Shown: piece by piece, positions 27,232 to 63,100 of the stretch
Layout of the letters: each line of letters opens with the position of its first letter
Position numbering within the stretch: the stretch's first letter is position 1
Source of the DNA: Rhodamnia argentea
Lineage: Eukaryota > Streptophyta > Magnoliopsida > Myrtales > Myrtaceae
Direction: 5' to 3'
Assembly: GCF_020921035.1 (NCBI RefSeq)
Contig: NC_063156.1
Location: 23,608,283-23,672,282, forward strand
Length of the DNA: 64,000 nucleotides
Program-made: the position numbers and the translations under genes
Notes under the pieces: generated by a model
What the model was told of the DNA's origin: nothing
Seen by the model: only the letters and a program-made list of their open reading frames with translations
Database searches by the model: none

Positions 27232-27475
27232 GGACGCCATTCGGCCTCAAACTTTTCAATTTCGCCGATTTAGCTCTAAACCTTTGTGTTAAAAATCAAT
27301 TTAGTCATTCCGATCAATTTTTGCGCTAGCATGGTGGTATGCCACGTCGGGACGGCCGCCACCACATCGGCGGCTCCCGGCAAAGTTTGATCGGAATGAC
27401 TATGCTGGAATTTCATGCAAGGGTCTAAAACTCAATTAACAAAATTAGAAAGTTTAGAGCTGAATTAACATCCGC
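27232..27475. repeat. Fold-back repeat C, cut by the duplication breakpoint
   Basis: The left arm (AACTTTTCAATTTCGCCGAT, TTAGCTCTAAACC) is complementary to the right arm (AAATTAGAAAGTTTAGAGCTGA) across a GC-rich centre containing CCACGTCGG and CCACATCGG words. The left end of tandem unit 1 (27417) falls inside the right arm; only the portion from 27417 on is present in unit 2. Confidence 0.6.
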
Positions 27476-27797
27476 GATCCCCCTCTAAGAGAAGGGAAAT
27501 TCAGGGTTTTGGGTCGCTGTGCATACTCGAGGTCAATGTCCTAGCTAGTAACTTCTAGTCAAAGTAGTGGTTCGCCATGAGGAATCAGCAGCTTCATTTC
27601 GAGTCAGAGATCGACTAGAGCAATCCAACTACAACTGATGAAATGCGATACTTTTCTCCTACGGATTTCGCAGTGGTTGGGCAATGCATTGATCAACTTT
27701 ACGAGCACCAACCGTGGGTGACGATGACAAAATGAGTTAATGACGCAATAATTGATGGTTGACTAAAAAAAAAAATACTCCTATAAAGGCAAAAAGA

Positions 27798-27822
27798 ATA
27801 TATATATATATATATATATATA
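27798..27822. repeat. (TA)n microsatellite
   Basis: TA run; the counterpart in unit 2 (about 44473-44496) differs slightly in length. Confidence 0.9.
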
Positions 27823-28883
27823 AAATTGTTTATTAAATGGAAAGACTTTGACATTTACCTCATTGGCCCAATGTAAACAGTTTCAAGTCCCGGCACACGT
27901 CATCTAGTGAATGGGATATATTTGGAGAGAAGTTTGTTTTGCAGTATCTTGATGCTTTTAAGCAAAGTTTTAAATTTTAAAAAAAAAACACGAAAAATTG
28001 ATATCGAGGGAATTTGTAAAGGGCCCCTCTCCGACTTAAGCCCGTTCATGCTCGAAGAATTATATGCGATTATGATAAGACGGATGGTCGAGAGTCACAT
28101 CTAAGGCCCGATCTTGGGTCCAATATAAATCCCGCCTAGTGACCACCGCTGCAGCCCGAAATGAAAAGTACAGCAAATGCCTCCTTTGTTTCGAGGAAAA
28201 TGAATTACCCGGAAAATAACATTATTTTTATGAAAAATATTTTTGATTTTTTTTTTTTATTGTGCAACAACAATATCACGCACCAAAATCAGGATGCGGC
28301 CCAATAAATAGAACACGGACATGGCAACGGCCCACCCAGATTAGATGTTGATTTAGAAATTAGGATATCATTGAGAAAGAGAGGTACGTCCGTTCATGTT
28401 GGATCGGGTCAGTCCACGTTATGGGCCGGACTAGTTGTATTTACCCAAAAAGAAACTAAGTTGGACTTTTGAGTGGGACGTGACGCACGCTTGGTATCAG
28501 CTTTGGCTACAACTGCATAATAGCCAAGCACAAAAAAAAAAAAAACAAGACGAAAGGTGAAAAAGGACTTTGCTACTATAATAGTTTTTGGACGACTGTA
28601 ATAATAATAATATTTTGTGAGCCATAAGTTTTTAAAAGGGTGGACGTGATAATCATTTTTTATTCATTATTATTTTTTATGGCCCAAAACAAACCGTTAG
28701 CATAATAGCCCCTCAAAGAATATTACATAATCAATTCCTCAATCAAAGTTCAACTACAACACGAACTACAAATCAGATTTCTTGATCTTGTAAAAAAAAT
28801 ATTTAATAGTTAAACATCAAGTTTATATTTCACAAACAATTTTCTTTTTTATTTTCTTCTATATTCTTAGTCAAATCGACATA

Positions 28884-29767
28884 AATTATACCTATCAAAA
28901 TGGATATAAAACCCATTTATTAACCCAAATTTATTTACATGGGTAACAAATGGGTCACTTAAAATGTGCATGCCAACCATAAATGGATTGATAGATGGAT
29001 GAGCCAAAATGAATGGATCTTAAATTGGTTCCGTTATGAACCAATTTACAACCCATTTACAATTAAAAGCCTTGCTCCCACGTTTCACACCATTCCCACA
29101 CACGACATCTTCATCATCTTCCTCTTTAATCCTTCACCTCGCTCTTCATTCGATACGATCTCGTTCACCGCCGCCAACTCCAACCGCAAAGATTGTTTTC
29201 GATTAATCGTCAAGGAAGGGTTTGTTTGTCTCTCCCTCGTCGGGGAAGTCCCAAGCCTTGAGATTAGCCGAACGCCGCAGAGCTCGAGGCTAGTCGAGAT
29301 CTAGCCTCGAGCTCGCCACCGGGATCTTGGTGAGACCCGAGATCGCGAGCTTCGAGCGAGCTAGAGGCTTACCGGGACACGGTCGATTGCTGGGCTTCCC
29401 ACTGTCGCCGAAGCCCTACAACCGGTAGACAGAGGAGGAAGGTAGCAGATGTAGGAGGGAGCTTGCGGACGAAGGAGCGAGGAGGAAAAAAAGAAAAAGA
29501 AAAAAGAAAAAAAAAGAAAAAGAAAATAAAATAAAAACTTAAAACATTTTATAAAAAAAAATTCACTAAATTTACGGAAACTAAAAAGATTAAAAAAAAT
29601 TAAATATATAAGTAATTATTAATATGTGTCGGGTTGGGTATGGTCAAGTTAGGTATGGGTCAATAAATTTACACTACGCATAAATGAGTCATAAAATGGT
29701 TAATGGGTCAAGCCATTTAAGACCCGACCTTTACCCGACCCGACCCCACTTGTTTAACAGGTCTAAT
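28884..29767. mobile_element. Non-autonomous element E in unit 1 with GC-rich cargo
   Basis: The ends are inverted relatives (ATTATACCTATCAAAA at left; the right end reads ATTAGACCTGTTAAAC in reverse complement). Both arms contain 'tgacccatt/aatgggtca' words. The core 29060-29440 is GC-richer than its surroundings and contains a 112-codon open frame (28966-29304) with Ser/Pro-rich sequence reminiscent of a captured leader or first exon, but I recognise no family. The right arm is missing from the unit 2 copy. Confidence 0.5.
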
Positions 29768-29842
29768 GTAAATCACCATCCACGTTCATTTAATATATAG
29801 CAGACTTTTTTTTAATTACAAACCCGCTTGGACATGAAATGT

Positions 29843-30397
29843 GGAAAAAGTGTCAAAAAAATTATAAATCTATTGCATCCGTACTAATTCAGTCCTAAAC
29901 ATTTTGTTGGAGCCAATTCGGTCCTAAACATTTTGCATCGATACAAATTTAGTCATAAACCTTTTATATTTGTGTCTATTCGGTCAATTCGGTCAATTTT
30001 AGTCGAAAATCGCTAATGTGGACGTCGGTTGTCCATGGAGACCTTCGTTTGGGGTTGGCAAGGGTTGGTTGGCGACCCTTGCCACCCCCCCAAAATAAAA
30101 AAAAAAGTGCGAAAAAAGAAAAACAAGACAAAAAGAAAAAACCAAAATTTTTTAAGAAATTATTAAGAATAATTAAAAATATTAAAATAGTATTAAAAAA
30201 TATCTAAGTCAACGTCGGTCGTGTCATGTAGAACAACCGACGTCCACGTCAGCGATTTACGGCTAAAATTGACCGGATCGACTCAATTGTAATTGGTACA
30301 AATGCAAGAGGTTTATGACCGAATTGACACCAATAAAAGGTTAATGACGTAATGACATCAATGCAGTAGGTTTAGGACTTTGTTGACACTTTTCCCC
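29843..30397. mobile_element. Mutator-like fold-back MITE (element A), unit 1
   Basis: Termini are inverted repeats: GGAAAAAGTGTCAA at the left and GGGGAAAAGTGTCAA in reverse complement at the right. They are flanked by 9-bp duplications ATGAAATGT (29834-29842) and ATGAATTGT (30398-30406), which differ at one base. The arms are imperfectly complementary over a few hundred bp ('cctaaac...attcggtc' words) with a GC-rich centre (GACGTCGG). The 9-bp target duplication and G-start termini fit Mutator superfamily MITEs. Confidence 0.65.
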
Positions 30398-30667
30398 ATG
30401 AATTGTGGATTCGGCCGTGGATAGAGATCGTTTCTATAAGTAGAATTGTCCCCAAAGTCATTGTATTTTTCGTCACGGAAAAGATAATGAATATTTTCGT
30501 CCGGCAACAAGATTACATTTTCCATGTTCTCGTAGGCCAATCTGCAATTTCCAGGAAATGTACCATTGACATGTCCTTGATATAAGCCCAATCAGATTAA
30601 CACAATCGAAAGTGATATTTTCCTTTACCATTGGAAGAAAGTTAGTCGTCTTTCGTTCGTGACAACA

Positions 30668-30669
30668 AC

Positions 30670-30712
<43 letters not shown>
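30668..30712. repeat. (AAT)n microsatellite, unit 1
   Basis: An uninterrupted AAT run of about 15 repeats. The homologous run in unit 2 (47212-47244) is shorter, and its flank differs by several substitutions. Confidence 0.95.
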
Positions 30713-30714
<2 letters not shown>

Positions 30715-31215
30715 CTTGAAATGTGCCTTGATTTAAATAGCAGAACCACAAGATTTTCCAATTGACCCCATGTGCTCGCCTTCTTTGACTGACTGACGGC
30801 TGCGGAACCAAACAATCGGAAAATAAGACGAATGATTGCACGACAATTCCAACCTTGCCGCCCAAGCAAAATCGAGGATTCCACGACAAAATGAATTAAT
30901 AAATGTAGATACAAAAGGCTGCTGGTCGTGACCTTTGTCCTAAAGCGTTGCGTCAAGACGAATAAAGACGCCATGTCTCTGTCAAACAGGCGTGGCCAAG
31001 CTGCATAACTCCATATTGGAAAATGCTGCCACAGTTTTTTTTTTCCTTTTTTAATTTCTTGTATCGGTTGACTCAGTAAAGACAAAGACATTGCTGAAGA
31101 AAATGCATCCACATTTCTTTCCCCGGACCGGTAACATGTGCATTGTGCATTGTAGATATAACTTATGTTTTCTACTTTTTCCTTTTTTGAAACCCCATGT
31201 GTTTTTGGCTGACCG

Positions 31216-31830
31216 ATGATCGGGCAAAGTACCCAAAAAAGTCACAAATCTATTGCATTTGTACCGATTTAATCCGAAATTTTTTAATTGTACCGATTGA
31301 ATTATAAAATTTTTGATGATTAGCCAATCTAGTCCATCCTACTAATTTTAATCGAAAATCGCCGACATGAACGACAGTCGTCCGACATGGCATGGCCGCC
31401 GCTAACATGGACGAGTTTTATTATTTTTGTTTTTTCTTTTCTTTCCCAACTTTGGGGCAACGAGGTTGCCCGCCGACCATCACTAGCCACGGGCGAGGGC
31501 GTCAGTCCCTCACCTATATCCGGGCGAGGCCTGACACCCTCGTGGTCAATGAGGGCCGCGACACCCTTGCATGGTCTAGGCAAGGGCCGTGATGCTCTCG
31601 CCAACCCAGAGTTGTAAAAAAGAAAAAACAAAGAAAGGAAAAAAAAGGAAAGAAAAAATATTGAAAAAATATAAAAATTTTCTATGTCAGCAATGGTTGT
31701 GCCACGTAGGAACCCCGGCATCCATGTCGGGGATTATAGGGTCAAAAGGTTTTGGACTCAATCAGTACAATTAAAAAGTTTAAAACTAAATTGACACCGA
31801 TGTAATAAATTTAGTACTTTTTTTATACTT
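31216..31830. mobile_element. Mutator-like fold-back MITE (element B), unit 1
   Basis: Left end GGCAAAGTACCCAAAAAAGT and right end GGGAAAGTATAAAAAAAGT (reverse complement) are inverted. The arms carry ATCTATTGCATTTGTACCGA-like and complementary words around a GC-rich core (31440-31610). It is the same structural class as element A. Flanking target duplication is not clear. Confidence 0.55.
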
Positions 31831-32509
31831 TCCCTAATGATAACCTAACGCGTGATTTCCGAACTCGGATCAAGTGAGCTTTGGTATCAACCCAAATGAC
31901 AATTTGAGTTCCCACAAATAAATAGGTCGAGCATTTGGTCTCCTGGCATTTGCATACATGCTTTCATAGTATGTCAATCATTCAGCTCGGGAGCTAGAGT
32001 TTTCCCTTTCAAACCATATCAATTGCGAGAACTAGTCCGTGTGAGGGCTATCGACCCGGATCTAAGGTTAAAACTCAAACGGTTTATAGGGGTTGCAAGG
32101 TGTTTGACAGGCTTTCATCAATAATCAAATTTTCAACGAGGATATAATCAATTTCGTCTATTGAATTCAATTCAAGCAGTGATGTTTTAGTGACTAAAAT
32201 CTAACATAATGCAAAAATAATCATGGGGGTGATTCCATTCAATCCAAGCAATGAATGTTTTAGTGACTAAGGCTAATGCAATGCCACACTGATCATGGGG
32301 GTGATTAGATTGGAATAATAATGCGTCCTCCTTCCCCGATCGCCAGAAGCACGAGCCGACTGACGTGACCATGCTCCATTTACGATTCTGCCCTTTTCTT
32401 ACATAGAAAGTGAAAACGTGGATCCTTTGTAAGCTGGAACAGTCAGTCAAACGTATGTGATTCTCGTGCTTTTTGAAATTTTTTTAAGAAGGCTAATGAT
32501 ATATACATT

Positions 32510-32782
32510 TGAAGAACAGAATAGTTTTTGGGGAAAAGAAAAAGTTGAACGAGAAGCTTTTGAAGGGATGAAATTCAGTATATCGTTCTAAATTCTTACA
32601 TATACATAAGAACATATAAATACAAGAATGTAGAAATAGGAAAAAAATATACAATATGTTATTTTCCTATTCTATAGACTAAGTATCCAATATTAGAGAT
32701 TTACAGAATTAATCAATCTGAGATGTGCACAAAATAAAATCAATCTTCAGCATTTAGTCCCAATTTATAGCTCGTGTCAACA
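32510..32782 (-). repeat. 3' LTR of the unit 1 Copia element
   Basis: It begins TGAAGAACAG and ends GTCAACA on the plus strand (TG...CA ends). It is immediately followed by the polypurine tract complement CTCCCCCTCAAG at 32783-32794. Confidence 0.85.
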
Positions 32783-32934
32783 CTCCCCCTCAAGTTGATG
32801 TATAAATATATTTAATGCCCAACTTGTTGAGCGAGTTGTAGAAGATCCCGCTTAATACAGCCTTCGTCAGTATGTCAGCCAATTGATCTTCAGATTTATT
32901 AAAAAAAAAATCGAGCTATCTTGTTATCTAGATT

Positions 32935-35900
32935 TTATTTGATAAAATGTCGATCTACCTTAATATGCTTGGTACAAGCGTGCTGAATTGAATTGTGAGA
33001 AATATCAATTGCAGTATTATAGTCACAAAACAAATTCATCTCAAACTTGGGAGCAAGGCCAAGTTCCGACATTAACCTCTTGAGCCAAATAAGTTCACAA
33101 AGTCCTTTGGCTATCCCCCTGAATTTGGCTTCCGCACTCGACAATACTACTATTTTATGTTTCTTGCTTCTCCAAGTGACACAAATCCCTCATACAAAAG
33201 TAAAATACCCCGATGTCGATTTCCGGTCCGAAACACTCCATGCCCAATCTGCATCTATAAAACCTCCAATTTCAAGATGCCCATTCTTTGAAAATAAGAG
33301 TCATTTCCTTGGATCAAACTTCAAGTAGCAAAAGATTCGAACCACAACATTCATATGATCTTCAATAGGTGCATGCATAAATTGCCTAACAATGCTCACA
33401 GCACACGCAATATATGGACGAGTATGAGACAAATAGATTAACTTTCCCACTAACCTTTGATATCTCTTCTCACTAGTTGGCACCTGATCCGGGTATTTCT
33501 CAAGTTTGTAATTCTGAACAATTGAAGTATCAACTTGCTTACAATCTAGCATCCCCATCTTTGCCAATAGGTCTAGTACATATTTCCGTTGAGAAAGAAA
33601 TATGCCTCCTTTCATTCTGGCTATCTCAATTCCTAAGAAACACTTGAGTCCCCCAAGATTCTTCATTTCAAACTCCACTACGAATCTCTCTTAGAGTTTA
33701 GAAATCTCCTCCAGATCGTCCCCTATTATAATCATATCATCCAAATAAATAATCAAAACTGTTGCCTTTTCTTCATGTTGCCTCTAGAATAATGTATAAT
33801 CTGATAAATCTCTTTAAGATTACTCATATCTTTTCATAGCCAAGCTAAAATGACCAAACCAAGCATGGGGAGATTGTTTTAGTCCATATAGAGAACATTG
33901 CAACTTATATCCAATGCCTTGCTGTGAGAAAACATTGTACCCAGGTGGAATATCCATATAAATCTCTTCTTCAAGGTCACCATGGACGAAAGCATTCTTG
34001 ACATCAAACGGGTGTAGTGGCCAATCTAAGTTGGCAGTAAGAGACATCATAAATCTAACGGTGTTAAGCTTTGCAAATGTTGAGAATGTATCCTAGTAAT
34101 CTACGCCATATGTCTATGTGTATCCCTTTGCTATAAACCTTGCCTTATATCTCTTGATGGATCCATCCGCCTTGTATTTAACGGAGAACACTCATTTACA
34201 CCCCACGGTTTTCTTCCCTTTAGGCAATCCCATAAACTTTTAAGTTCTATTTTTTCGTAACGCCTTTGGGTCTTCCAAGGCTTCTTGTACCCTATCGGGA
34301 ACATGGAATGAAGACACATTAGACGTATATGCTTTTAGTGGTTTTGACAATCTCCTAGTTGACACATAGTTTGCAATGGGATATTTTGATCTCCTTTTCT
34401 CCACATCCGGTAAGTATCGGTTTGGGAGCTTGCCATGATTATACCCGCTAGGTAACTTATATCTAGTAGGTATATTAGAATTATCAAGATTATAGGATGT
34501 TGTAGGGAAAATTATCTTAGGAATATCCTCGGGAGATGAGTTGAGTCTTGGAGAGTGGGGAAACTATTTTTGCACATCGTGTTCATGTATGGCCTGCCCA
34601 TCCCTCGTCGGGACCTACCCAACCTTTGGTACCACCTACCCAGCTCTTGTTGGCAATGTTTGGACTTGCTTATCCTCCTTTGGGATTGACCCAACTTTCG
34701 ACATCTCCCGCCCAGCCCATGTCGACAATGTCGGGGCATGCCCAGCTGCTGTTGTGATACTACGGCCATTCACCCATTAATTCTTCATTCCTTCCCATAT
34801 CTCCTCCTAAAAGGAAGAGTTGGATATCGGAAAAAATTAGTTCAGATTCCATGAAGGTCACATCCATAGTAACATAGGTTTTTCGAGTAGACAGATTGTA
34901 GCAATTATAGCACACGGCATGTGGATCAAGTTTAGTGCTCTGATTTTTATGGATGTGTACGAAGGCTACACAGCCAAAAACTTTAAGGGAAATGATCAAA
35001 GTTGAAGGGAGAGAAACATGCGCTAATAGAGTCTATAGTGGAGTCTAAAATGCCAACACTTTAAAGGCGTCCTATCAAAGAGATGAACCACCGTGACAAC
35101 TGCATTTTCCCAAAATTTGTTCGGAACATAAGCTCTAATTAATAGTGCATGAGCTATCTTTAGGATGTGTTTGTTCTTCCATTTAGCTACCCTATTTTGC
35201 TGTGGTGTATGTGGGGAAAAGTATACTAGAAATGCCATAATTTTTGTACGGCGTTCACTTGAATGCTATAACTTTCAAAACGTTCACTTAAGTGCTATAA
35301 CTTTCAAAAATTGTTCACTTGAGTGCCATGTTGACGTGGATGCCGGAAAAGCTAACGTAGCAACCAGAAAGCTAACGTGGATCGCCGGAAAGCTGATGTG
35401 GCACGCCGAAAAAGTTATTGTAGCACTCAAGTGAACGATTTTGCTCCAACGTGACACTCAAGTGAATGATTTTTGAAAGTTATGGCACCTAAGTGAACAT
35501 TTTGAAAGTTATGGCACTCAAGTGAACGCCATACACAAGTTATGACACTCATGGTGTACTTATCCCGGTGTATGTGTATAGGACGTCTCATGAAGGAGAC
35601 CATGCTGCTGAAAATATACTTGCAGGTGTTGATTGGCATTTTCTCCACCATTATCAATACGAAGAACTGGAACTTTAGCACCAAATTGCGTCTTTATCAT
35701 AGTATGGAAGATACAAACCACATTTGATACTTTGTCTTTATGTTTCATCAAATATTACCAAGTCATTCAAGTGCAATCATCAACAAAGGTCACAAATCAC
35801 GTAATTCCCAAAACAGTAGTAATAGGAGAAGGATCCCAAACATCCGAATGTAATAAGGAAAAAGGAACACTCTTATTCAAACTTAGTAGAAAAGGAACAC

Positions 35901-37434
35901 GATGGCTTTTAGCAAAAACAAAAGTCTCATATTAGAAAGCTGAGTCTCATAAATTGGAAAACAACTTAGGAAATAAATATTTCATATAACCAAAGGATGG
36001 GTGCCCCAACCGACGAATGCCATGGCTAAACTTGCTTCCCCTTGCTACAGGAGGAAGGTCTTGTATGGTTCACACTCCCAGCATTGAAATTGTCCATGTA
36101 GTACAACCTCCCTCTCTTAATACTATGCCCAGTGATCTCTTCCGTGAGAATATCCTGAAAAAGTAAAAAAAATTGGATACATTAGAGCAACGCAATTGAG
36201 CTCTTCAGTGGCTTGACCGACAGATATCAATTTATTTGACAATGATGGAACTAGAAGGGTATTAGACAGAGAGAGTGACGTTGAAAGAGCAACAATCCCA
36301 GCTCTTGTCATAAGATAAGTAGTTCCATTAGCATTGGTGATCCTATGACGCCTTGGTTGCGTAACCCTGACGAAGTCGTCTGGATTGAAGGTCATGTGAT
36401 CCGTATCTCCCGAATCAATAATCCATCCACTTTACTTATCGTGATTATAAGTAAATATAGCACATCCATAATTACCTTCATATATTGCAGTTGAATTACT
36501 AGTTGGTTCTACCTGAGAGATCAATAACAAATGAGGTTCCACTGTTACAAGTGAAGCTTTCCTTTTTTCGCCATTCACCTCACATTTAGCTTGTTTTCGT
36601 GCCTTGAGTTCTTTCCACCAATCTGGATACCCATGTAACTTAAAGCATGTCTCATGGGTATGTTTCATGGTCCCACAATGCGTGCATCCACCAACTGGTT
36701 GGGATTTCTGCCTTTAGATTGTGATGTTTCTTCTACCACCCGAGGAGATGCCTATTTTGAAAATTTACAGCATTGACACCTCGTGGATCTCGTCAGCAGA
36801 GGCAATCTTGGCCCCCATCTTCTTCCCTCTCGATACCATGGCAGTGGCGTGTGTAGTGTCTGTGCTCGCCAACATCACCGCCTGTCGTAGATCTTCCCAT
36901 CGAACACGGGCATATGCTAGCTCAATTGTAGGGAAAGGTTGCATTTGGAGTACATCAGCTCAGACTTTATCCAAGCGATCAATACACACTATCTTCCTGA
37001 ATAGCATCATTGTATCTCTCTATATCAACAGGACATATCATCGGATTTGGACGGCTGAAATCAATTTCCCTCCATAAGCCTTGTAGACCATTGTAGTAGG
37101 TTTTAATGGTCCTCTAGCCTGTCTCATTCTAGTCACACGTACGTCTCTTCAAATCATAAACTTGAGAAGTATCAATTCCATAAAAAAGTAATAGCACCAA
37201 ATCCCCACCATTGAATCCTCGATTTTTCACTTTCTAAGCTTGCATCTGTCGATTGGGGTTGAGGAAGATCCCCATTGATATATCCCAATTTGTCTTTTGC
37301 CGGAGATATACATACCAAAGGCCATAGTTGGTGTCGTCCAACTTGATGGCGATCTGTACTGTGGGATATTCATCGTGTGATGTTTGAATCTGGTTCTGGG
37401 TCGGGATCTGCTGCATCTTGGTCGTAATCCTCAA
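32935..37434 (-). pseudogene. Copia gag-pol coding remnants, unit 1
   Basis: Recognisable pieces, in sense order: IAIKLDDTNYGLWYVYLRQ (gag N-terminus); THETCFKLHGYPDWWKELKA (gag C-terminus); LVPSLSNKLISVGQATEELN (preintegrase region); VLRIDNGGENANQHLQVYFQ and QQNRVAKWKNKHILKIAHAL (integrase core); HPFDVKNAFVHGDLEEEIYM and LYGLKQSPHAWFGHF (reverse transcriptase); LGGLKCFLGIEIARMKGGIF; and SSAEAKFRGIAKGLCELIWL with FCDYNTAIDI (RNase H). The usual YVDDM-type active-site region lies in the gap between the 33820-34050 and 33301-33678 pieces, where the frame is broken. Stops and frameshifts recur at the same places in unit 2. Confidence 0.88.
35214..35567. mobile_element. Mutator-like MITE nested in the Copia integrase, unit 1
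   Basis: It splits the integrase reading frame between ..SYTHTP and HTPQQNRVAKW. The target sequence GTGTATGTG is present on both sides (35205-35213 and 35568-35576), a 9-bp (possibly 10-bp) duplication. Ends are inverted: GGGGAAAAGTATACTAGAAA versus GGGATAAGTACACCATGAG in reverse complement. Nearly the whole element is a fold-back of repeated 'gccataactttc...cgttcacttgagt' words. Confidence 0.8.
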
Positions 37435-37529
37435 GGATTGCTATTGCAGAAGGATCCTTGCTGCTCCCCTATTGAGTCTCCAGTTTGTTTCTATCTCCCA
37501 TGACTGTTGCTCACCGGATCAATAACGCT

Positions 37530-37541
37530 GCTCTAATACCA
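37530..37541 (-). other. Copia primer binding site (tRNA-iMet type), unit 1
   Basis: The sense-strand sequence TGGTATTAGAGC adjoins the 5' LTR. It differs at one position from the canonical plant Copia PBS TGGTATCAGAGC. Confidence 0.8.
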
Positions 37542-37822
37542 TGAAGAAGAGAATAGTTTTTGGGGAAAAAGAAAAGTTGACAGAGAAGCTTTTGAAGGAA
37601 TGGAATTCTGTATATCGTTCTATGTTCTTACATGCAACATAAGGACATATAACTACAAGAATGTAGAAATAGGAATAAAAATATACAAGATGCTATCTAT
37701 TTTCCTATTCTATAAACTAAGCAATCCAATCTTAGTGATTTACAGAATCGATCAATCTAAGATCTGCACAAAATAAAATCGTACTTTCAACATTTAGTCC
37801 CAATTTACAGCTCACGCCAACA
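37542..37822 (-). repeat. 5' LTR of the unit 1 Copia element
   Basis: TGAAGAAGAG...CGCCAACA on the plus strand, TG...CA ends. It appears identical by eye to the corresponding LTR of unit 2 (54068-54348). Confidence 0.85.
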
Positions 37823-39146
37823 ATATCGGCAGTGGAAATACTATCGGCTAAAAAGATAAGTTAATATATTTTGTTAATAAGTCAGGTTTGAAAGATGATA
37901 ACGCACGGACTCTTTTCTCGGATTACACCTACCTAATGGCGTGGTTATGGAATTAATAATTCTGCGATGTCATAAATACTTTTTATTCTTTGTTATGACC
38001 GAGAAATTCATTGGTTTCGTCTCGAAGTCAAACTAACATATGGTCCAAATTCGATTCGCATGGAGCAGATATTAGTAGGTGATTCGCGATAATGAACCAT
38101 GTTCGCAACATGTCGGTCACGGACACATATGACTAGTTCAGTAATCCTGTTAGCTCAATTCAAGCGGACCCGCCTACTCGGTATTTACTACTTGGTCTTT
38201 CCTTTGCTTAGAAATTCACAAGTAGTTTTGTTACTGTTTGAACGGTGGACTTTTCTAATGAACTATAGCAACTCATAAATTTTAAAAAAAATTATGATTG
38301 TAGTTTGTATTACGTTGCCAGTTGCCATATTATTGTACTAATGACCCGGAGCACGTTATAATTATATTTGATGAGGGTGAACAAGATGGACCGATCAAAT
38401 CTGAAATAGCCTGGGCCAATTCCAATTACATAAAATTGAAACCGCTGATTTTCGATCCAGTTCAAGGTTCCAAGGAGGAACTCAAAAGTACCTTTGTTAG
38501 AGACTAGCTCCTTTTCAACCTATATAGTTAGCTCGTAGTTCTATCAGAGGGTCGTACGCACGTTTGCCAACTTTTCATCGGCGATAATAATGTCGTCACT
38601 GAGATTGGCTTTCTGGTTGGATTCTCGATTTTTAGGTGCGACCGAACTGGATTGGGAACCAATCATCCCTAATATTTGACTAGAAGGGGAATGATGGGTA
38701 CTAGAACTGTAAGTGGACAAACGCCACGTCAGTCGGCTTCTGGTTGCGGTGCGCTTCTTCGGAGCTTGTATCGTTTTAGTCACAGAAATTAGAAACGCTC
38801 ATCGGTCAGAAGACCCGGACCATGTACAGGTCGGAAAATGACAAGAGAGACTGATGACCACATGCTCTTGTCTTTCCTCTTTGTTTTGCTTGCCTTTCAT
38901 GAATCACACTTCCTCGCCACTTGACCTCCTAATCTAACCCGAAGTCTTAAAAATTTCCACTGGAATCTCCTGTTGAATGGGCACAAAGGAAGCCGCAAAT
39001 CAATGGCTGACACACTGAAGCCCGTGCAAGAAAGAACTTCGTCGTTTCCCGCAACAAGACAGAGACAAACAAGTCTCGCCGCATGCTTAAATACCCGCCG
39101 CAGCCTCGCAAATTCCTGCGCTCCATCTCTCTCTCTATAAGCAACC
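37823..39146 (+). promoter_or_regulatory. Upstream region of MATE copy 1
   Basis: This 1.3-kb stretch between the Copia LTR and the MATE start has no convincing ORF. A TATA-like TTAAATACC lies at 39087-39095, about 50-60 bp upstream of the start codon, followed by a CT-rich CTCTCTCTCTATAAG leader. The initiator context is AACCATGG. Only two or three differences were seen from the unit 2 counterpart over the whole stretch. The Copia LTR ends about 1.3 kb from the ATG and could supply regulatory sequence, which is speculation. Confidence 0.45.
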
Positions 39147-48360: not shown

Positions 48361-49036
48361 CTAATGATAACCTAACGTGTGATTTCCGAACTCGGATCAA
48401 GTGAGCTTCGGCATCAACCCAGATGACAATTTGAGTTCCCACAAATAAATAGGTCGAGCATTTGGTCTCCTTGCATTTGCATACATGCTTTCATAGTATG
48501 TCAATCATTCAGCTCAGGAGCTAGAGCTTTCCCGTTCAAACCATATCAATTGCGCGAACTAGTCCGTGTGAGGGCTATCGACCCGGATCTAAGGTTAAGA
48601 CTCAAACGGTTTATAGGGGTTGCAAGGTATTTGACAGGCTTTCATCAATAATCAAATTTTCAACGGGGATATAATCGATTTCGTCTATTGAATTCAATTC
48701 AAGCAGTGATGTTTTAGTGACTAAAATCTAATTTAATGCAAAAATAATCATGGGGGTGATTCCATTCAATCCAAGCAATGAATGTTTTAGTGACTAAGGC
48801 TAATGCAATGCCACACTGATCATGGGGGTGATTAGATTGGAATAATGATGCGTCCTCCTTCCCAGATCGCCAGAAGCACGAGCCGACTGACGTGACCATG
48901 CTCCATTTACGATTCTGCCCTTTTCTTACATAGAAAGCGAAAAAGTGGATCCTTTGGAAGCTGGAACAATCAGTCAAACGTATGTCATTCTCCTGCTTTT
49001 TGAAATTTTTTTAAGAAGGCTAATGACATATACATT

Positions 49037-49309
49037 TGAAGAACAGAATAGTTTTTGGGGAAAAGAAAAAGTTGAACGAGAAGCTTTTGAAGGGATGAAA
49101 TTCTGTATATCGTTCTAAATTCTTACATATACATAAGAACATATAAATACAAGAATGTAGAAATAGGAAAAAAATATACAATATGTTATTTTCCTATTCT
49201 ATAGACTAAGTATCCAATATTAGAGATTTACAGAATTAATCAATCTAAGATGTGCACAAAATAAAATCAATCTTCAGCATTTAGTCCCAATTTACAACTC
49301 ATGTCAACA
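49037..49309 (-). repeat. 3' LTR of the unit 2 Copia element
   Basis: TGAAGAACAG...ATGTCAACA, followed by the CTCCCCCTCAAG polypurine complement. Confidence 0.85.
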
Positions 49310-49461
49310 CTCCCCCTCAAGTTGATGCATAAATATATTTAATGTCCAACTTGTTGAGCGAGTTGTAGAAGATCCCGCTTAATACAGCCTTCGTCAGTAT
49401 GTCAGCCAATTGATCTTCAGATTTATTAAAAAAAAAATCGAGCTATCTTGTTATCCAGATT

Positions 49462-52400: not shown

Positions 52401-53960
52401 TTCAAACTTAGTAGAAAAGGAACACGATGGCTTTTAGCAAAAACAAAAGTCTCATATTAGAAAGCTGAGTCTCATAAATTGGAAAACAACTTAGGAAATA
52501 AATATTTCATATAACCAAAGGATGGGTGCCCCAACCGACGAATGCCATGGCTAAACTTGCTTCCCCTTGCTACGGGAGGAAGGTCTTGTATGGTTCACAC
52601 TCCCAGAATTGAAATTGTCCATGTAGTACAACCTCCCTCTCTTAATACTATGCCCAGTGATCTCTTACGTGAGAATATCCTGAAAAAGTAAAAAAAATTG
52701 GATACATTAGAGCAACGCAATTGAGCTCTTCAGTGGCTTGACCGACGGATATCAATTTATTTGACAATGATGGAACTAGAAGGGTATTAGACAGAGAGAG
52801 TGACGTTGAAAGAGCAACAATCCCAGCTCTTGTCATAAGATAAGTAGTTCCATTAGCATTGGTGATCCTATGACGCCTTGGTTGCGTAACCCCGACGAAG
52901 TCGCCTGGATTGAAGGTCATGTGATCCGTATCTCCCGAATCAATAATCCATCCACTTTACTTATCGTGATTATAAGTAAATAAAGCACATCCATAATTAC
53001 CTTCATATATTGCAGTTGAATTACTAGTTGGTTCTACCTGAGAGATCAATAACAAATGAGGTTCCACTGTTACAAGTGAAGCTTTCCTTTTTTCGCCATT
53101 CACCTCACATTTAGCTTGTTTTCGTGCCTTGAGTTCTTTCCACCAATCTGGATACCCATGTAACTTAAAGCATGTCTCATGGGTATGTTTCATGGTCCCA
53201 CAATGCGTGCATCCACCAACTGGTTGGGATTTCTGCCTTTAGATTGTGATGTTTCTTCTACCACCCGAGGAGATGCCTATTTTGAAAATTTACAGCATTG
53301 ACACCTCGTGGATCTCGTCAGCAGAGGCAATCTTGGCCCCCATCTTCTTCCCTCTCGATACCATGGCAGTGGCGTGTGTAGTGTCTGTGCTCGCCAACAT
53401 CACCGCCTGTCGTAGATCTTCCCATCGAACACGGGCATATGCTAGCTCAATTGTAGGGAAAGGTTGCATTTGGAGTACATCAGCTCAGACTTTATCCAAG
53501 CGATCAATACACACTATCTTCCTGAATAGCATCATTGTATCTCTCTATATCAACAGGACATATCATCGGATTTGGACGGCTGAAATCAATTTCCCTCCAT
53601 AAGCCTTGTAGACCATTGTAGTAGGTTTTAATGGTCCTCTAGCCTGTCTCATTCTAGTCACACGTACGTCTCTTCAAATCATAAACTTGAGAAGTATCAA
53701 TTCCATAAAAAAGTAATAGCACCGAATCCCCACCATTGAATCCTCGATTTTTCACTTTCTAAAGCTTGCATCTGTCGATTGGGGTTGAGGAAGATCCCCA
53801 TTGATATATCCCAATTTGTCTTTTGCCGGAGATATACATACCAAAGGCCATAGTTGGTGCCGTCCAACTTGATGGCGATCTGTACTGTGGAATATTCATC
53901 GTGTGATGTTTGAATCTGGTTCTGGGTCGGGATCTGCTGCATCTTGGTCGTAATCCTCAA
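49462..53960 (-). pseudogene. Copia gag-pol coding remnants, unit 2
   Basis: Same domain pieces as unit 1. In several places unit 2 keeps the more canonical residue: IAIKLDGTNYGLW in gag (unit 1 has KLDDTNY), MTFNPGDFVGVTQ (unit 1 MTFNPDDFVRVTQ), and SHTRPDIACAVSIVRQ (unit 1 SHTRPYIACAVS) in the pol C-terminal part. Elsewhere unit 1 is more canonical (EEEIYMDIPPGY versus EEEIYMDISPGY). Both are non-functional. Confidence 0.88.
51739..52092. mobile_element. Mutator-like MITE nested in the Copia integrase, unit 2
   Basis: Same insertion point as in unit 1, with GTGTATGTG duplications at 51730-51738 and 52093-52101. Here the left terminus GGAAAAAGTACACTAG is closer to the right terminus than in unit 1 (which has GTATACTAG). 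Confidence 0.8.
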
Positions 53961-54055
53961 GGATTGCTATTGCAGAAGGATCCTTGCTGCTCCCCTATTG
54001 AGTCTCCAGTTTGTTTCTATCTCCCATGACTGTTGCTCACCGGATCAATAACGCT

Positions 54056-54067
54056 GCTCTAATACCA
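54056..54067 (-). other. Copia primer binding site, unit 2
   Basis: TGGTATTAGAGC in the sense strand, directly next to the 5' LTR. Confidence 0.8.
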
Positions 54068-54348
54068 TGAAGAAGAGAATAGTTTTTGGGGAAAAAGAAA
54101 AGTTGACAGAGAAGCTTTTGAAGGAATGGAATTCTGTATATCGTTCTATGTTCTTACATGCAACATAAGGACATATAACTACAAGAATGTAGAAATAGGA
54201 ATAAAAATATACAAGATGCTATCTATTTTCCTATTCTATAAACTAAGCAATCCAATCTTAGTGATTTACAGAATCGATCAATCTAAGATCTGCACAAAAT
54301 AAAATCGTACTTTCAACATTTAGTCCCAATTTACAGCTCACGCCAACA
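54068..54348 (-). repeat. 5' LTR of the unit 2 Copia element
   Basis: TGAAGAAGAG...CGCCAACA; appears identical by eye to the unit 1 copy at 37542-37822. Confidence 0.85.
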
Positions 54349-55674
54349 ATATCGGCAGTGGAAATACTATCGGCTAAAAAGATAAGTTAATATATTTTGT
54401 TAATAAGTCAGGTTTGAAAGATGATAACGCACGGACTCTTTTCTCGGATTACACCTACCTAATGGCGTGGTTATGGAATTAATAATTCTGCGATGTCATA
54501 AATACTTTTTATTCTTTGTTATGACCGAGAAATTCATTGGTTTCGTCTCGAAGTCAAACTAACATATGGTCCAAATTCGATTCGCATGGAGCAGATATTA
54601 GTAGGTGATTCGCGATAATGAACCATGTTCGCAACATGTCGGGTCACGGACACATATGACTAGTTCAGTAATCCTGTTAGCTCAATTCAAGCGGACCCGC
54701 CTACTCGGTATTTACTACTTGGTCTTTCCTTTGCTTAGAAATTCACAAGTAGTTTTGTTACTGTTTGAACGGTGGACTTTTCTAATGAACTATAGCAACT
54801 CATAAATTTTAAAAAAAAATTATGATTGTAGTTTGTATTACGTTGCCAGTTGCCATATTATTGTACTAATGACCCGGAGCACGTTATAATTATATTTGAT
54901 GAGGGTGAACAAGATGGACCGATCAAATCTGAAATAGCCTGGGCCAATTCCAATTACATAAAATTGAAACCGCTGATTTTCGATCCAGTTCAAGGTTCCA
55001 AGGAGGAACTCAAAAGTACCTTTGTTAGAGACTAGCTCCTTTTCAACCTATATAGTTAGCTCGTAGTTCTATCAGAGGGTCGTACGCACGTTTGCCAACT
55101 TTTCATCGGCGATAATAATGTCGTCACTGAGATTGGCTTTCTGGTTGGATTCTCGATTTTTAGGTGCGACCGAACTGGATTGGGAACCAATCATCCCTAA
55201 TATTTGACTAGAAGGGGAATGATGGGTACTAGAACTGTAAGTGGACAAACGCCACGTCAGTCGGCTTCTGGTTGCGGTGCGCTTCTTCGGAGCTTGTATC
55301 GTTTTAGTCACAGAAATTAGAAACGCTCATCGGTCAGAAGACCCGGACCATGTACAGGTCGGAAAATGACAAGAGAGACTGATGACCACATGCTCTTGTC
55401 TTTCCTCTTTGTTTTGCTTGCCTTTCATGAATCACACTTCCTCGCCACTTGACCTCCTAATCTAACCCGAAGTCTTAAAAATTTCCACTGGAATCTCCTG
55501 TTGAATGGGCACAAAGGAAGCCGCAAATCAATGGCTGACACACTGAAGCCCGTGCAAGAAAGAACTTCGTCGTTTCCCGCAACAAGACAGAGACAAACAA
55601 GTCTCGCCGCATGCTTAAATACCCGCCGCAGCCTCGCAAATTCCTGCGCTCTTTCTCTCTCTCTATAAGCAACC
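54349..55674 (+). promoter_or_regulatory. Upstream region of MATE copy 2
   Basis: Nearly identical to 37823-39146. The differences I see are one extra G in GTCGGGTCACGG, one extra A in an A run, and CTTTCTCTCTCTC versus CCATCTCTCTCTC in the leader. The TATA-like TTAAATACC is conserved at about 55615-55623. Confidence 0.45.
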
Positions 55675-58600
55675 ATGGAGAGAGGAGGACAAGAGACAAG
55701 CCTGAGCTCACCACTGATAGAGCCGTGTGGTGAGGATGGTTTTGCGAGATCATTGGCTTCGAACGAGAGAGAGGAAGAGAAGGGTGCTGTCAGGTGGAGG
55801 AGCGAGGTTCTTGTAGAGATAAAGAAGCAGCTATGGCTTGCTGGTCCGCTCATATCGGTGAGCTTGTTGCTCTACAGCTTGCAGATGATCTCTCTCATGT
55901 TCGTTGGCCATCTTGGCGAGCTGCCTCTCTCCGGCGCTTCCATGGCCACCTCCTTCGCCACCGTCACCGGTTTCAGCTTACTGGTGAGCTTGAGAGATCG
56001 CTGTATTAGCGTTGCTCTTACTTCAATTCAAATTCCATAACAAACAGATTTAATTTATGGTTTTGGCTTAGTTGATGTTCTCATAAATCCATGCTCGAAA
56101 CTTGAGCTGAGACGATGCTATATGTTTGTAATGGATGCTCTTGTCCACGATCAATCTGTTTCTTCGTTTTCTTGTAGCAGATTTGGTAGATGTTACCCTT
56201 TTTAGTCCTGTATTTGTCACCTGAATTCACCGGCAGTTTTTCGTCAGTACTAGATCGACAGACTTTGTTTGAGAATTACTCACTTTGGAGAGGCAACAAA
56301 GGATGAAGATGATGAAATTACTGTCTCCCTTACTATCTAACCGGAAGAAAATAGAACTGGTGCCCATAATTTGGCTTGGCTAGGCTAGCCATATTTTGTT
56401 AGTGCTGCACTGGAGATGCTATTGATACCGGAGTTGAATCTCAGTTCTACCACACATTTATCCAATTTAAACAACAGTGACTAAACTTTGAAGAGCATAT
56501 GTCAGTCTTCTCTTGTGAAGTTCTGATTTTTCTTCTGTCAATCCTCTTTAACTAGATGGGAATGGCCAGCGCATTGGATACGTTCTGCGGCCAATCATAC
56601 GGGGCTAGGCAGTTTCATATGCTTGGAATTCACATGCAGAGAGCTATGTTCATCCTTCTACTAGTAAGCATACCTCTTGCTTGCATCTGGGCAAACACGA
56701 GAATCATACTAGAAGCAGTCGGCCAACAATCAGACATAGCGGCGGAAGCGGGAAAGTACGCCCGATACATGATCCCGTCCCTCTTTGCTTACGGCCTTCT
56801 TCAATGCCTGGTCAAGTTCTTGCAGACTCAGAACATAGTCCTCCCTATGGTGCTGAGCTCGGGAATTGTTACATTACTGCATATCTTCTTCTGTTGGGTT
56901 CTGGTCATGAAAACCGGCCTCGGAAGCAGAGGAGCTGCCTTGGCGAATTCGATATCGTATTGGTTGAACGTGTTGCTGTTGGCGCTTTACGTGAAGTTCT
57001 CTTCTTCGTGCTCCAAGACGTGGACCGGGTTCTCAAAGGAAGCCTTTCACGACATTCTCAGATTCCTTAGACTTTCCATTCCTTCTGCGGTTATGGTCTG
57101 GTAAAAACATCTCAGAACCCTTCATCTCTCTCGTGATCCTGATAAAACCGATGATATGCGCGATCCTCTTTGTTGCTGCAGCTTGGAGATGTGGTCATTC
57201 GAGATGATGGTGCTCCTCTCAGGACTTCTCCCGGACCCGACATTGGAAACTTCGGTGCTTTCTATCAGGTTAATCTCGAGCTCGGCGTTAGTCTTTCGTG
57301 AAATAGTTCAGGATGAGGCGCATTTGATGCACACTTTAGTTTGTAGTATGTATATGACCTCCCAATGTTTACATTCTCAGTCTCAACACCGCCGCGACAG
57401 TTTGGATGATCCCTTACGGACTCAGCTGCGCTGTGAGGTAAGCATGCCAAACTGCGTACATTGCATGACATATTCATATGAATATTAAGACCAAATTGGT
57501 GTGGCAATGGCGTTTCACGTGTTTCCCTGGTCGTCAATCTATACAGCACTCGCGTTTCAAATGAACTAGGGGCTGGGAAGCCTCTGGCTGCGCGTTTGGC
57601 AGTGTATGTGGTCCTCTCCACGGCCGTAACCGAAGGAATTCTGGTCGGAATAGTCTTGATCTCGATACGCAATGTGTGGGGCTATGCTTACAGCGACGAG
57701 ACAGAGGTGGTCGATTACGTAGCCGTCATGATGCCGATTCTAGCAGCTTCAAACTTCTTGGATGGACTCCAATGCGTCCTTTCAGGTTGCTTTTGTCGTT
57801 TTACACGATTGGCGTGTTTTTGATCCGGTCCGATTCTGTTCCTCGTAGATGCCATGAAATCGCAGCTCATGCTCCAAACTAGTGACAGTTATTTGTGTTT
57901 CGCCCTCGCTCTTCTTCAGGAACTGCTAGAGGATGCGGTTGGCAAAAGATTGGGGCCTTTGTCAACCTGGGGTCTTATTACTTGGTTGGCATTCCATCTG
58001 CAATACTGCTAGGTTTTGTTCTCCATGTCGGTGGAAAGGTGAAACTCTTCGGTCTTATACTTTTCATATTCCTCGATTTTACGTTGAAATGTGGAAAGGT
58101 GAAACTCTTCGGTCTTATACTTTTCATATTCCTCGATTTTACGTTGAAATGATACGAACAGTCCCGATCCACAAATATGATTCTGATTAGAATTGATTTT
58201 TTCTGATTTTGTTCTCTGAATAAATTTTAGAGAATCAAAACGCTTTTGATAACTAATAAAAATTTCTATTTTAAATCGAGAGAAAGCAATGAGAAAACTA
58301 AAAGGAAAAAATGAAAAATGTGAGGCTTCATGCTATTTTATGTTTCTGAAAAGTGATTCTTTTTTTTCAAAATCAACTTTTTTTTTATTCTTTTTTTGCC
58401 TAAAACTATTCTCGAGAACAAAATTAGAATCAGAATTATTTACGTTACTAAACATGTTTCTCATCCTTTTTTATCCCGAAAAATAAAATCAGAGAATCAG
58501 AATAGTTGCCGGCCCTAACTTTCTAGGAACGGTGATTACAACCTAGACATGGCCACGGACCGTGAACCGCCGGTTTCGGTTCATGGACCGGCGGTTCCGG

Positions 58601-58913
58601 TTCTAGTTCCGGTGATTCCATGGACCGGTTCCGGGCCCAAACCGGCCTGTGGCCATCTCTATTACAACCCGCTGAATATTTTCTCCTGCTGCAGGGTCTC
58701 TGGCTAGGAATTATCTGCGCGCTAGTGGTGCAAGTGTTCTGCCTTTTCTGCATCTTTCTACGTACTAACTGGGACCAAGAGGTTAGACCCTTTTACATTA
58801 ATAGAGAAGAAATCACTCACCTTGTTCATACTAAAGATTTTCTGCTTTTGCAGGCAAAGAAGGCAGCTGAGAGAGTGCATGACTCCACCATCCCCATAGA
58901 CACAGTGTCATAA
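55675..58913 (+). CDS. DETOXIFICATION (MATE) efflux transporter, tandem copy 2; eight exons
   Basis: Exons: 55675-55983, 56556-57100, 57182-57268, 57381-57437, 57547-57785, 57920-58038, 58695-58781, 58854-58913; 1503 nt, 500 residues. The same MATE landmarks as copy 1 are present, and TM7 keeps the conserved CLEMWSFEMMVLLSGLLP. Other differences from copy 1 include LALYVKFSSSCSKTW (copy 1 LAPYVKFSSLCSKTW), IPYGLS for IPFGLS, and SEVLVE for SEVPVE. Exon 6 ends at donor 58039, but a perfect 60-bp tandem duplication (58031-58090 and 58091-58150) repeats that donor at 58099. Using the second donor adds 20 in-frame residues without a stop. It is convergent with the CDKD kinase gene, whose stop codon lies 1.2 kb downstream. 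Confidence 0.93.
58031..58150. repeat. Perfect 60-bp tandem duplication spanning the exon 6 donor of MATE copy 2
   Basis: The unit GTGGAAAGGTGAAACTCTTC... ending ACGTTGAAAT occurs twice head-to-tail without a mismatch. Unit 1 of the large duplication has it once (41497-41556). It therefore arose after the large duplication or was lost from copy 1, and lack of divergence points to a recent event. Confidence 0.97.
58544..58660. mobile_element. 117-bp TAGACATGGCC-family MITE in MATE intron 6, copy 2
   Basis: Same site and flanking ATTACAACC duplications (58535-58543 and 58661-58669) as in copy 1. The insertion predates the segmental duplication. Confidence 0.8.
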
Positions 58914-60120
58914 GGAAGAATCTAGTTTTAGGTAGAAAAACTCGGAATATGTGAAGATCGAGAAAGCAAAGAGCAAAATGTTATGCTGAATGCTGTACTC
59001 AAAGAATTGCGGAAGAAAATGCAGGATTGCAGTAACTAGTGTAGTTCAATGCCCCAAGTGATGGTCCAAAGTAAGGAAGAGCCGGCGTGTGTAAGCTGAC
59101 CTAAGGCAGGTGTGAAGTGTGAACAGAACGAATGGAGAGTAGGATGATGCCATTGTAACTTTCTACCATCTGAATAACATCAATTTTGATTTTGATTCGA
59201 ATGTTTGTGCAGCTTACTCATTGAAATCTCAAATGGAGTAATTTGAACCGCCTTAATCTCTTTCTAGAGAGCTACTTTAATTCTTAACATCACACAAGCT
59301 AAGCAAGTGCCAATGTACTCGCTAAGTTTGAGATGCAGACGGCATTGTCCATGCTTATTTAGGAAAATTCTTAGTCCAAAAGAAACGACTACTCAATATC
59401 AGAGCTGTGTATATAAAAAAGCCAAGCTCATTCAGTTCTATGCACAGGACAGAGTCAGAAACCAAAACAGAGCCACAAAATATATTAACTGGAAGATAAC
59501 AAGATCACTTAAACTGTTTTCCGAACAATACATCATGAAATTTCCACATCAATGGTCTAAAATTGCATAATCAAGCCCATTTAATTGAAAAATGCGAAGA
59601 GTATCCATATGATAGCTACTCTACAGTATACATACAATAAACAGGATGGATCGGCCTACAGCATTCTCCAGTCTTAATCCTCCATCAAAAGCAACCAAAA
59701 GAACACTGATCATAGAATTAGAATCGGGCACAATAATTAGAGGTGCAAGTAAACCACTCAAAAGCATCAGCTTGGAATAAAAGAAGAAAAATGCCTCCAA
59801 AAATGTCGGCCTTCTACGACCTAGTGTACAAGTTCTCTGTCAAGTAGAAAGGAGGATGTTACCTTTTACTTTTCCCTCCTTTTCATATAATTATTTCCTC
59901 CCCAATTTCAAGCCTAGATAAATGATTGACTTCCAAATTCAACCAAAGTAGCGCCCTCTTCAGTCTCATGATATATGCAAAAGGCGAGCACATTTCCTCA
60001 CCGAACAATGAAACTTTCCGATACTCAAATTACCTCAAGGGAATAACCGCAAGCCTCATTAATGCTTGTGCAGAACTCAGTGTGCATAAACTTAAGAGAG
60101 TCGTGCAAAGCAATGAAGTT

Positions 60121-63100
60121 TCATTCCGGATGCTGGAATTCAAGATCTAGCTTCCTTTTCAAATGGGTCCGGTCAGCACTGCCCAACAAAAAAAGACACA
60201 GAGCCCTACATCAATAAGCGAAAAATTCCAACACAGCATCACTAAATTTAATGGTATTGGAGTTTCTGCATTTAAATACCATAGACATGAGTACATACTT
60301 CCGTGTCTGAATAAAGACAAATCTGTAAGCTGATGCCCGACTAAATTATATGCAGCTAAAGATATAATAGCTCGAATATTAGGCCTTCCTACAAAACTAG
60401 TGAGTAAATCAAATTTCATCTATGAAACTTGTTTTTAAACATGTAGTTTGTCAACTTATTTAGTAGCATGATATTCAATTAACAGGTTGTATCTGAGGTA
60501 CGTAACCGACTCAGTTCTCATCTTTAGGTGACGAGAATAAATGCTTTCAAATCATACACAAATCACTTTGGAGAAGTAGGCATGGCTCAGCTGCAGGGGT
60601 TCCATGGGCAAGTCAGCACATCGTCATATGCTTGGAGAAGAGCCGACACCAGTGACTCAATTTGCTAAAGCTACTTATTATCGACAAACCAATTCAGTAG
60701 TCCAAGGAAAGGATTTTCATGAATTTGCTTCCTTGATACCGATGGGACTCGTACCTTATCTTCACCAGACTAACTGGAATGAAACTATGCTCACAGGAAT
60801 ACTAATGTCAGTTTGAGTTTCTTCATTGATTGTTTTCTCAGTAACTCGTAGACCCCAACCGAATGACATTCTTTATTGTCTATCCTGGTCTCACAAAGAA
60901 TAAACAAATTTCCTTCTTTCTCTTCCCATCCCCATCCATTCCATATTTACTTTAGAAAAACATTTTGTGACATCCGTCACACATCACTTCCTATGTCTAA
61001 TTATATCCGTCAAGAACTATACAGAGCCAAAAAGCTAGAAAGAGAATATAGACATGGACATCGTCCATAACGGAAAAACATACTGTTAGTTTCAAAAGGG
61101 AGCACAGAAGACTACTGTTTGATGAAAAAATAACCTAATGTTGTACAAACCACTTGTAGATTTGGAGTGCAGACACTTTGTCTAGCCAAGTTCTTGTTGG
61201 AATTATATGAAGTCAAAAGTAAAAGGATTGAACAATTTCCAAACAAAGAAAGAAGTCTGATTGATTGTCAGGGAAATATCCCAATATCAGCCAATATTGA
61301 TAGCAAAATGAGCAAGTAGAAGATGAATCTTCAATTACTCAGATTCTCTTCCATGATACTCATGCACATCTCCATTCGAATAGAAGGAGCTCATTGATTT
61401 AGCAAAAGTTCAAAGGTAAAAACTCTCTCCTTTTTGAGGAGCACAAATTTCTCTTCTCCCATCTCCCATTATCACCATAAAAATGAAGATGCTCAATACT
61501 GATATGTAAGCCTCAAGACTTTAGGACAATAAACTCATTTTTCTATTTATTTATCTGGTAGCAGCAGTACACTCATGAATACTTAAGATTTGAACAATTC
61601 ACACAACCTTCCCTAGCAAGCATACTAACGTGAATACTCTGCAGGAAGAGGGAGCCATGGAATACACTATTGTGGCAGCCGAAACGGCGGATTCCGCAGC
61701 TTGATTACTAGATGAATAATAAAAAACAAATGATTCCTTGGTGCAAGGATCTTAAAATCTGATTCATCAAAACCAGCAGGTAGAGAACTTCACTAAATGT
61801 TGACATTGCAGTTTGGTGACATTGCGGCTCTTATTCAGAACGTTGGCACTTAAATCATCATAAAGTCACCCTGGAGAATCAATTGCAAGAAGACACTACA
61901 TGGAAAGCAAGAAAATTTATGATGCTAAATTTTGGAGGAAAGTGCTAGTCTCTCCCTCCCCCATTCATCACACAGGTAGTACATCTATTTAAATAAATGT
62001 AGAAACATAAATTGTGTGTAAGGCCTCGTGAATGAATAAATTCCGATTTGGCCCAAAAGGAAAGCTAGGATATGAATATCTTGATATGCCTGAAAAAAAA
62101 AAACAAAGGAAAAAATGAACCAGTCATATAGCCACATAGGCTATGGAAGTGACTTATGTTCATTGAAACATATTCATCTACAAAATTTAATTTTAAATAG
62201 ATCCAAGAAATTAAAATGTCAACAAAAGAACCAGGTGGTCCAGCCTGAAAGGTATAACTGCCTTCACAGCTCAGTGTCATATTAACAGTCATGATCAAAT
62301 AGCCTCAACAATCTATGCATGAAAGGCATGAAGTCAGATTAATTAGCCCCAGCTATGAAAAGGTATTTGTCCACATTTGAAACATTTTGGCCCGAGCAAA
62401 CTATGACAAGGTGACCAAGTAAATATGCACTGTTTTACCTGTTGATTGTTGGTCTATTTGGAGGTCTGGCACCAAATATGGAAAAATCCAGTGACATAGG
62501 AACCTGCTCGTTTCTGCTTGCATGATCTCCAAGACCCGGTCTAACTTCACTGACATGATCATCCAATTTATCATTCTGATAGGCATTCCCTTCAAACCCT
62601 TCACGTTCTGGCATCACTCTCCTGGACTTTCTCGGAGGTGATAACACGGTGGGACCCTCGGGTGGATTAAAGTCCGAGGTCCTAGAATTATGTGATTCCC
62701 GCTTTGGAGCTGGTCGAGGTAGCTTATCAGGAACTGTTGGCAGAGGAGCTGATGAGAAGTACCTATGCAGAAGGAAACCATGGACAGAAAAAGGAATGAA
62801 GGGTAGCCGTTGGTAGATAATCTGGAGCAGCAGGTGCCAATGGGACATGAGGTGAATAGGGAGTAAAAAGAAAGAAAACAAAGGACAGAGAGTGGGTGGA
62901 GGAGGCTTAGCTCACGTACCTGTGTTCTAGAGCCTGCTGTACTGAGATTCTATTCTTTGGATCATATGTAAACATTTTGGCTAACAAGTCCAGAGCATCA
63001 TCACTTGCCATAGGAAAGAGTGAACGAAGAGGAGGTGCTGGGACATACTGGTATTCCACATAATCTGGAAGGTACACCATGTCAGGCCACTGAGAAGCTG

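Follow-up and report, generated by a model that had tools for sequence, protein, structure and literature searches.

A 16.6-kb tandem duplication in Rhodamnia argentea with unevenly diverged copies and a MATE gene pair in which one member lacks a conserved glutamate

Segmental tandem duplication, including that of MATE genes, is an ordinary event in plants, and tandem plant MATE/DTX pairs of the DETOXIFICATION 16-like kind show the same arrangement as the locus described here, a head-to-tail pair of intact eight-exon genes. This pair lies in a 64,000-nt window (the whole stretch analysed) of NC_063156.1 from Rhodamnia argentea, or malletwood, a tree of the Myrtaceae (Myrteae). It differs from other tandem plant MATE/DTX genes in that copy A lacks two glutamates in the region of transmembrane helix 7 (TM7), both of which are Glu in 118 other proteins compared. 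The genes belong to a 16.6-kb direct tandem duplication, probably an older, end-joined one whose copies were later homogenised patchwise by gene conversion. Plant gene families such as RPP8 (PMC6771003) are subject to interlocus gene conversion, in which duplicated genes likewise exchange sequence; the patchwork in R. argentea differs from it in extending mostly over non-coding DNA and a long terminal repeat (LTR) element, within one genome.

Self-BLAST of the window gives two adjacent, collinear copies in direct head-to-tail orientation, with unique flanks on their outer sides:

27417-44089, + strand: copy A (self-BLAST, global alignment)
44090-44094, + strand: 5-bp filler TTTGC at the joint (raw sequence)
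44095-60681, + strand: copy B (self-BLAST, global alignment)

The raw sequence reads ...TTATTAT-TTTGC-GCAAGGG... at the joint, ...TTTCAT-GCAAGGG at the left outer boundary and ...TTATTAT-CGACAAAC at the right one, the outer flanks being unrelated. Since the window contains A, C, G and T alone, the joint is free of any assembly gap (no N). Of the 16,406 aligned columns in a global alignment of copy A with copy B, 567 are mismatches (3.46%); there are 40 gap runs. The duplication is real in the window sequence, chance being irrelevant at such length. The original prediction had described two long collinear copies with abrupt flanks and a TTTGC filler, and had proposed comparing the window with itself. 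That comparison recovers the direct repeat with the same ends, and reading the letters at its three ends confirms them together with the filler.

Divergence between the copies is uneven. Penalised segmentation of the aligned columns, performed with two penalties, yields under the less strict one five blocks in which 16 of 775 (2.06%), 316 of 3375 (9.36%), 125 of 3675 (3.40%), 11 of 3600 (0.31%) and 99 of 4981 columns (1.99%) differ. The two extremes are located as follows:

28200-31829 in copy A and 44870-48356 in copy B, no strand: most diverged block (9.36%)
35507-39106 in copy A and 52032-55634 in copy B, no strand: least diverged block (0.31%)

The gap runs are also concentrated, 30 of the 40 falling in the first 4.4 kb of the alignment. 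With indels ignored, the longest mismatch-free run spans 1758 columns (A 37366-39123, B 53892-55651), mostly inside the least diverged block, against a longest run of 418 (all columns) or 428 (non-coding columns) in 5000 shuffles treated in the same way. Two one-base indels split this run into 749 and 840 columns plus ends, and when each indel is counted as one difference the longest runs, of 840, 749 and 740 columns, are contiguous in A 36459-39123; the 840-column run exceeds the maximum of 448 found in 10,000 shuffles. With A 28000-31899 excluded, it exceeds a shuffle maximum of 707, and the best 3000 columns hold 11 differences against a shuffle minimum of 31 (10,000 shuffles in each case). 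By segmentation and shuffles alike, the divergence is clustered beyond what a single rate produces. As one duplication gives all sites one age, this pattern calls for something further: an assembly effect, a marked change of rate, sequence from a third donor, or exchange between A and B after the event. The contrast between the two extreme blocks does not fit a single age without later exchange. We therefore do not retain the single "recent" age originally given to the duplication.

Two other causes were rejected. Methylation-driven C-to-T change does not account for the uneven divergence, because the clustering persists once CG/CHG columns are dropped (longest mismatch-free run 1496 columns, against 760 at most in 5000 shuffles) and the greatest divergence lies outside the LTR element. 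Nor does exon constraint account for the identical tract, as the 1758-column run includes 0 exon columns. A Pfam search of eight frames from the most diverged block (five from copy A, three from copy B) returned no family at expectation values (E) up to 0.1. In the same block, about 159 bp at 29627-29785 of copy A, near inverted repeats at 29843-30396, are missing from copy B, through either insertion or deletion.

Both copies carry the same decayed retrotransposon:

32510-37822, - strand: Ty1/copia LTR element of copy A, LTRs at 32510-32782 and 37542-37822 (Pfam, LTR comparison)
49037-54348, - strand: the same element in copy B, LTRs at 49037-49309 and 54068-54348 (self-comparison, LTR comparison)

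Its assignment to Ty1/copia follows from RVT_2 lying between two LTRs and from copia-type domains; the pieces, on the - strand and in broken frames, comprise RVT_2 (two frames), SH3_retrovirus and Pol_BBD, and 4 of the 10 frames submitted to Pfam matched retroelement families. No target-site duplication of the element was recognised by eye. Comparison of the LTRs within each element gives 32 differences in 273 columns (11.7%) for copy A and 29 in 273 (10.6%) for copy B, indicating that the insertion predates the duplication. Between copies, the left LTRs differ at 5 of 273 columns and the right LTRs, part of the homogenised tract, at 0 of 299, so that selection on genes is not the cause of the homogenised tract. 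Matches to CED4_WHD, NB and Herpes_U59 in one Pfam-searched frame were sub-threshold (E 0.06-0.09) and were taken as chance. An inverted repeat is nested in the element in both copies, at 35214-35566 (84% arms, copy A) and 51744-52091.

The transporter genes lie to the right of the retrotransposon:

39147-42321, + strand: MATE/DETOXIFICATION 16-like gene of copy A, 8 exons with GT-AG introns, 500 aa, intact reading frame, equal to P0001
55675-58913, + strand: MATE/DETOXIFICATION 16-like gene of copy B, 8 exons, 500 aa, intact reading frame, equal to P0002 if splicing takes the first exon-6 donor
58031-58151, + strand: 60-bp tandem repeat present in copy B only (self-comparison, gene model)

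Both models are residue-identical to proteins that NCBI names protein DETOXIFICATION 16-like of Rhodamnia argentea (P0001 and P0002), and the intact gene model in each copy agrees with the original prediction that the duplication created a MATE gene pair at one locus. The tandem repeat doubles the exon-6 splice donor; the second donor is in frame and would add 20 aa, and the NCBI model takes the first. Membership of the MATE (eMATE/DTX) family is seen in homology over nearly the whole protein and in PF01554 being assigned to the listed relatives. Residues 46-490 of P0002 align without gaps to AtDTX14 (PDB 5y50, E 3.3e-141), the best-scoring solved structure by sequence. Among the best 120 of 4163 matches, which are clustered and partly unnamed, Corymbia citriodora (92%), Psidium guajava (90%) and Syzygium grande (88%) have one named entry each, which suggests single MATE copies in these species. 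A literature search pairing "Rhodamnia argentea" with "MATE" found no publication.

In AtDTX14, according to the part of PMC5696359 considered here, Glu265 is bonded to Asp383 in the C-lobe, and protonation of one of the two is proposed to drive the TM7 change; activity is reduced by D383A in AtDTX14 and, in human MATE1, by mutating Glu273, which corresponds to Glu265. Position 287 of the R. argentea proteins corresponds to Glu265 in the gapless PDB alignment, with the numbering Cys263-Leu-Glu265-Trp266 and with the P36A site in register. When the copies are compared with the 118 others in the list of the best 120 relatives, positions 287 and 292 are Glu in copy B and in 118 of 118 relatives, and Val287 and Gly292 in copy A. 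The C-lobe acidic pair is thus intact in copy B (E287 and D405) and broken in copy A (V287 and D405). Residues equivalent to Asp383, Asn406, Tyr410 and Gln443 of AtDTX14 are conserved in both copies, whereas Gln296 and Trp266 are found in neither, being replaced by Ala and Met, respectively.

Having lost the Glu265 equivalent, copy A is most likely unable to perform the proton-coupled transport of its relatives. Judged from sequence, it is probably in decay as a non-coupling duplicate, although its frame is open, and copy B should couple transport to protons. The pair would then be evolving unequally, with B a conserved transporter and A a protein without the TM7 glutamate implicated in proton coupling. 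The coding sequences differ at 21 positions, of which 10 alter the protein, with nonsynonymous (dN) and synonymous (dS) divergences of 0.0088 and 0.0312. Eight of the protein changes could be polarised by five Myrtaceae-like relatives, sites 38 and 166 being excluded as ambiguous: copy A changed at 46, 247, 254, 287, 292, 399 and 446, and copy B at 326. We think it highly improbable that copy A has instead been retained as a full-length, proton-uncoupled MATE (a channel-like, regulatory or dominant-negative partner of B), kept near B by repeated conversion yet with Val287 and Gly292 retained.

We consider an older, end-joined duplication, later homogenised patchwise by gene conversion and with MATE copy A decaying, to be the likely history of the locus. 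The age of the duplication would allow sequence that escaped exchange to have diverged by about 9%, and patches of up to about 3.6 kb would afterwards have been homogenised between the copies at different times, by gene conversion or an equivalent exchange. Several points weigh against this history. The mosaic itself is observed, whereas conversion as the process behind it is deduced from two sequences only, and a rate change along the duplication, or third-copy exchange of the 28.2-31.8 kb block, could produce part of it. The unbroken run shrinks from 1758 to 840 columns once one-base indels are counted, and the stricter segmentation penalty leaves three blocks only, of 2.06, 9.28 and 1.90%. 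As for the decay of copy A, dN/dS is about 0.28, unlike a gene long free of constraint, and the 7:1 asymmetry of A and B changes is small (two-sided binomial about 0.07). The split between Rhodomyrtus tomentosa and Rhodamnia argentea is placed at about 15 million years in PMC10144328.

The stricter segmentation, in which 12.2 kb evolve at one low rate and the 28.2-31.8 kb block is the only one to stand out, is also what a different history would produce. Here the duplication would be young, with about 1-3% divergence, and one copy of that block would have been replaced by a diverged relative, through ectopic conversion or through the joining of two diverged parental haplotypes. The MATE dS of 3.1% fits a young duplication, and the foldback repeats of the block may mean that related sequence exists elsewhere. 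However, the differences are still clustered without the block (840 columns against at most 707; 11 differences against at least 31 per 3000 columns), which means that a degree of exchange between A and B, or of collapse, is needed anyway, and we regard this main rival as rather unlikely. The near-identical tract might also be partly an assembly effect, the duplication being real and the tract having been made by read collapse or polishing. Near-identical tracts of such length are hard for short reads, but differences of 2-3% are retained on both sides of the tract, and its 3.6 kb keep 11 mismatches and a few one-base indels; this explanation appears more doubtful still.

A CDKD gene lies on the right of the duplication and two genes lie on its left, the features relevant to the breakpoints being:

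43529-43586, - strand: orphan CDKD last exon in copy A (19 C-terminal residues and stop, split S codon, splice acceptor)
60121-60178, - strand: CDKD last exon in copy B, the one closer to the remaining CDKD exons (CDKD-tail probe)
62439-63179, - strand: another two CDKD exons, beyond the duplicated unit, encoding the kinase C-lobe and tail (Pfam, PDB match)
27302-27402, no strand: strong hairpin with a 16-bp outer stem (folding against shuffles)
left of the duplication, - strand: TCP-1/cpn60 chaperonin gene
left of the duplication, - strand: GT61 glycosyltransferase gene

CDKD is a CDK7-type kinase (best PDB match CDK7, E 1.4e-22), and the window ends within the gene, its 5' part lying beyond. 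The last intron, read on the - strand, spans 62438 to 60179, and the right breakpoint, 60681/60682, falls inside it, so that CDKD retains its last exon via copy B, the version in copy A being an orphan. The two exons differ by one synonymous change, and the CDKD-tail probe finds the last exon with its acceptor in both copies. The transporter gene, retrotransposon and kinase exon that the unit had been predicted to carry are thus identified as the MATE gene, the decayed Ty1/copia element and this CDKD exon. Seven relatives were compared, taken from 120 of 142 matches: P0121 has an identical 19-residue ending, P0122-P0125 depart from it at a small number of residues, P0129 is missing part of it and P0132 is more different. 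Pfam, applied to 10 stop-free frames covering the right-hand ends and the CDKD tail, recognised only a kinase exon, at 62910-63179, that neither copy includes; a CathepsinC_exc match at 43334-43555 was sub-threshold (E 0.17) and was taken as chance. With acceptor and frame intact in the orphan, CDKD transcripts reaching beyond MATE copy B might in principle be spliced to this exon.

The break shows no shared homology, in keeping with end joining. The original prediction had concluded from a junction without homology that a single end-joining event took place: the junction is as it described, with no usable homology, and the joining mechanism is probable. In such an event, a break in the last CDKD intron would have been joined to a break in the GT61-MATE spacer, beside the strong hairpin. 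This hairpin (-34.9 kcal/mol, z -5.98, 0 of 200 shuffles equally stable) lies outside the duplicated unit, its end about 14 bp before the left breakpoint, and may mark a fragile site. It is perhaps like a miniature inverted-repeat transposable element. A templated filler, the signature of polymerase theta, was sought up to 150 bases from either breakpoint; the best filler-spanning match, the 8-mer TTTTGCGC at 27319, is not above chance, as 5.1% of 3000 random fillers match a template as well as or better than TTTGC, and templating is not claimed. Further left, a foldback of 216 bp at 25902-26117 is 75% identical to its own reverse complement.

The same boundaries bear on the possibility of a false duplication, in which the assembler placed two haplotypes end to end. 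Trees of this kind are often heterozygous, but the joint is sharp, free of N and includes 5 additional bp, a divergence of 9% is high for alleles, and copy A stops within the CDKD intron without continuing into the flank of the intron. The loss of two invariant glutamates would also be less likely in an allele of a working single gene. That two distinct NCBI proteins of one species equal the two copies weakens the concern without removing it, these proteins, both listed with a longest contig of 30,013,793 bases, being probably from the same assembly as the window and hence not independent evidence. We consider a false duplication very unlikely.

The locus adds another example to the familiar class of tandemly duplicated detoxification genes, and its modest value rests on the mosaic and on the natural Glu265 variant. 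The overall identity of 96.5% conceals a mosaic of ages, so that dating by mean identity would mislead, and "recent" is better read as old enough for about 9% divergence where the copies have not been homogenised. With two copies that are 98% identical, one of them without the glutamate, the locus offers a natural test of the proton-coupling glutamate in plant MATE proteins.

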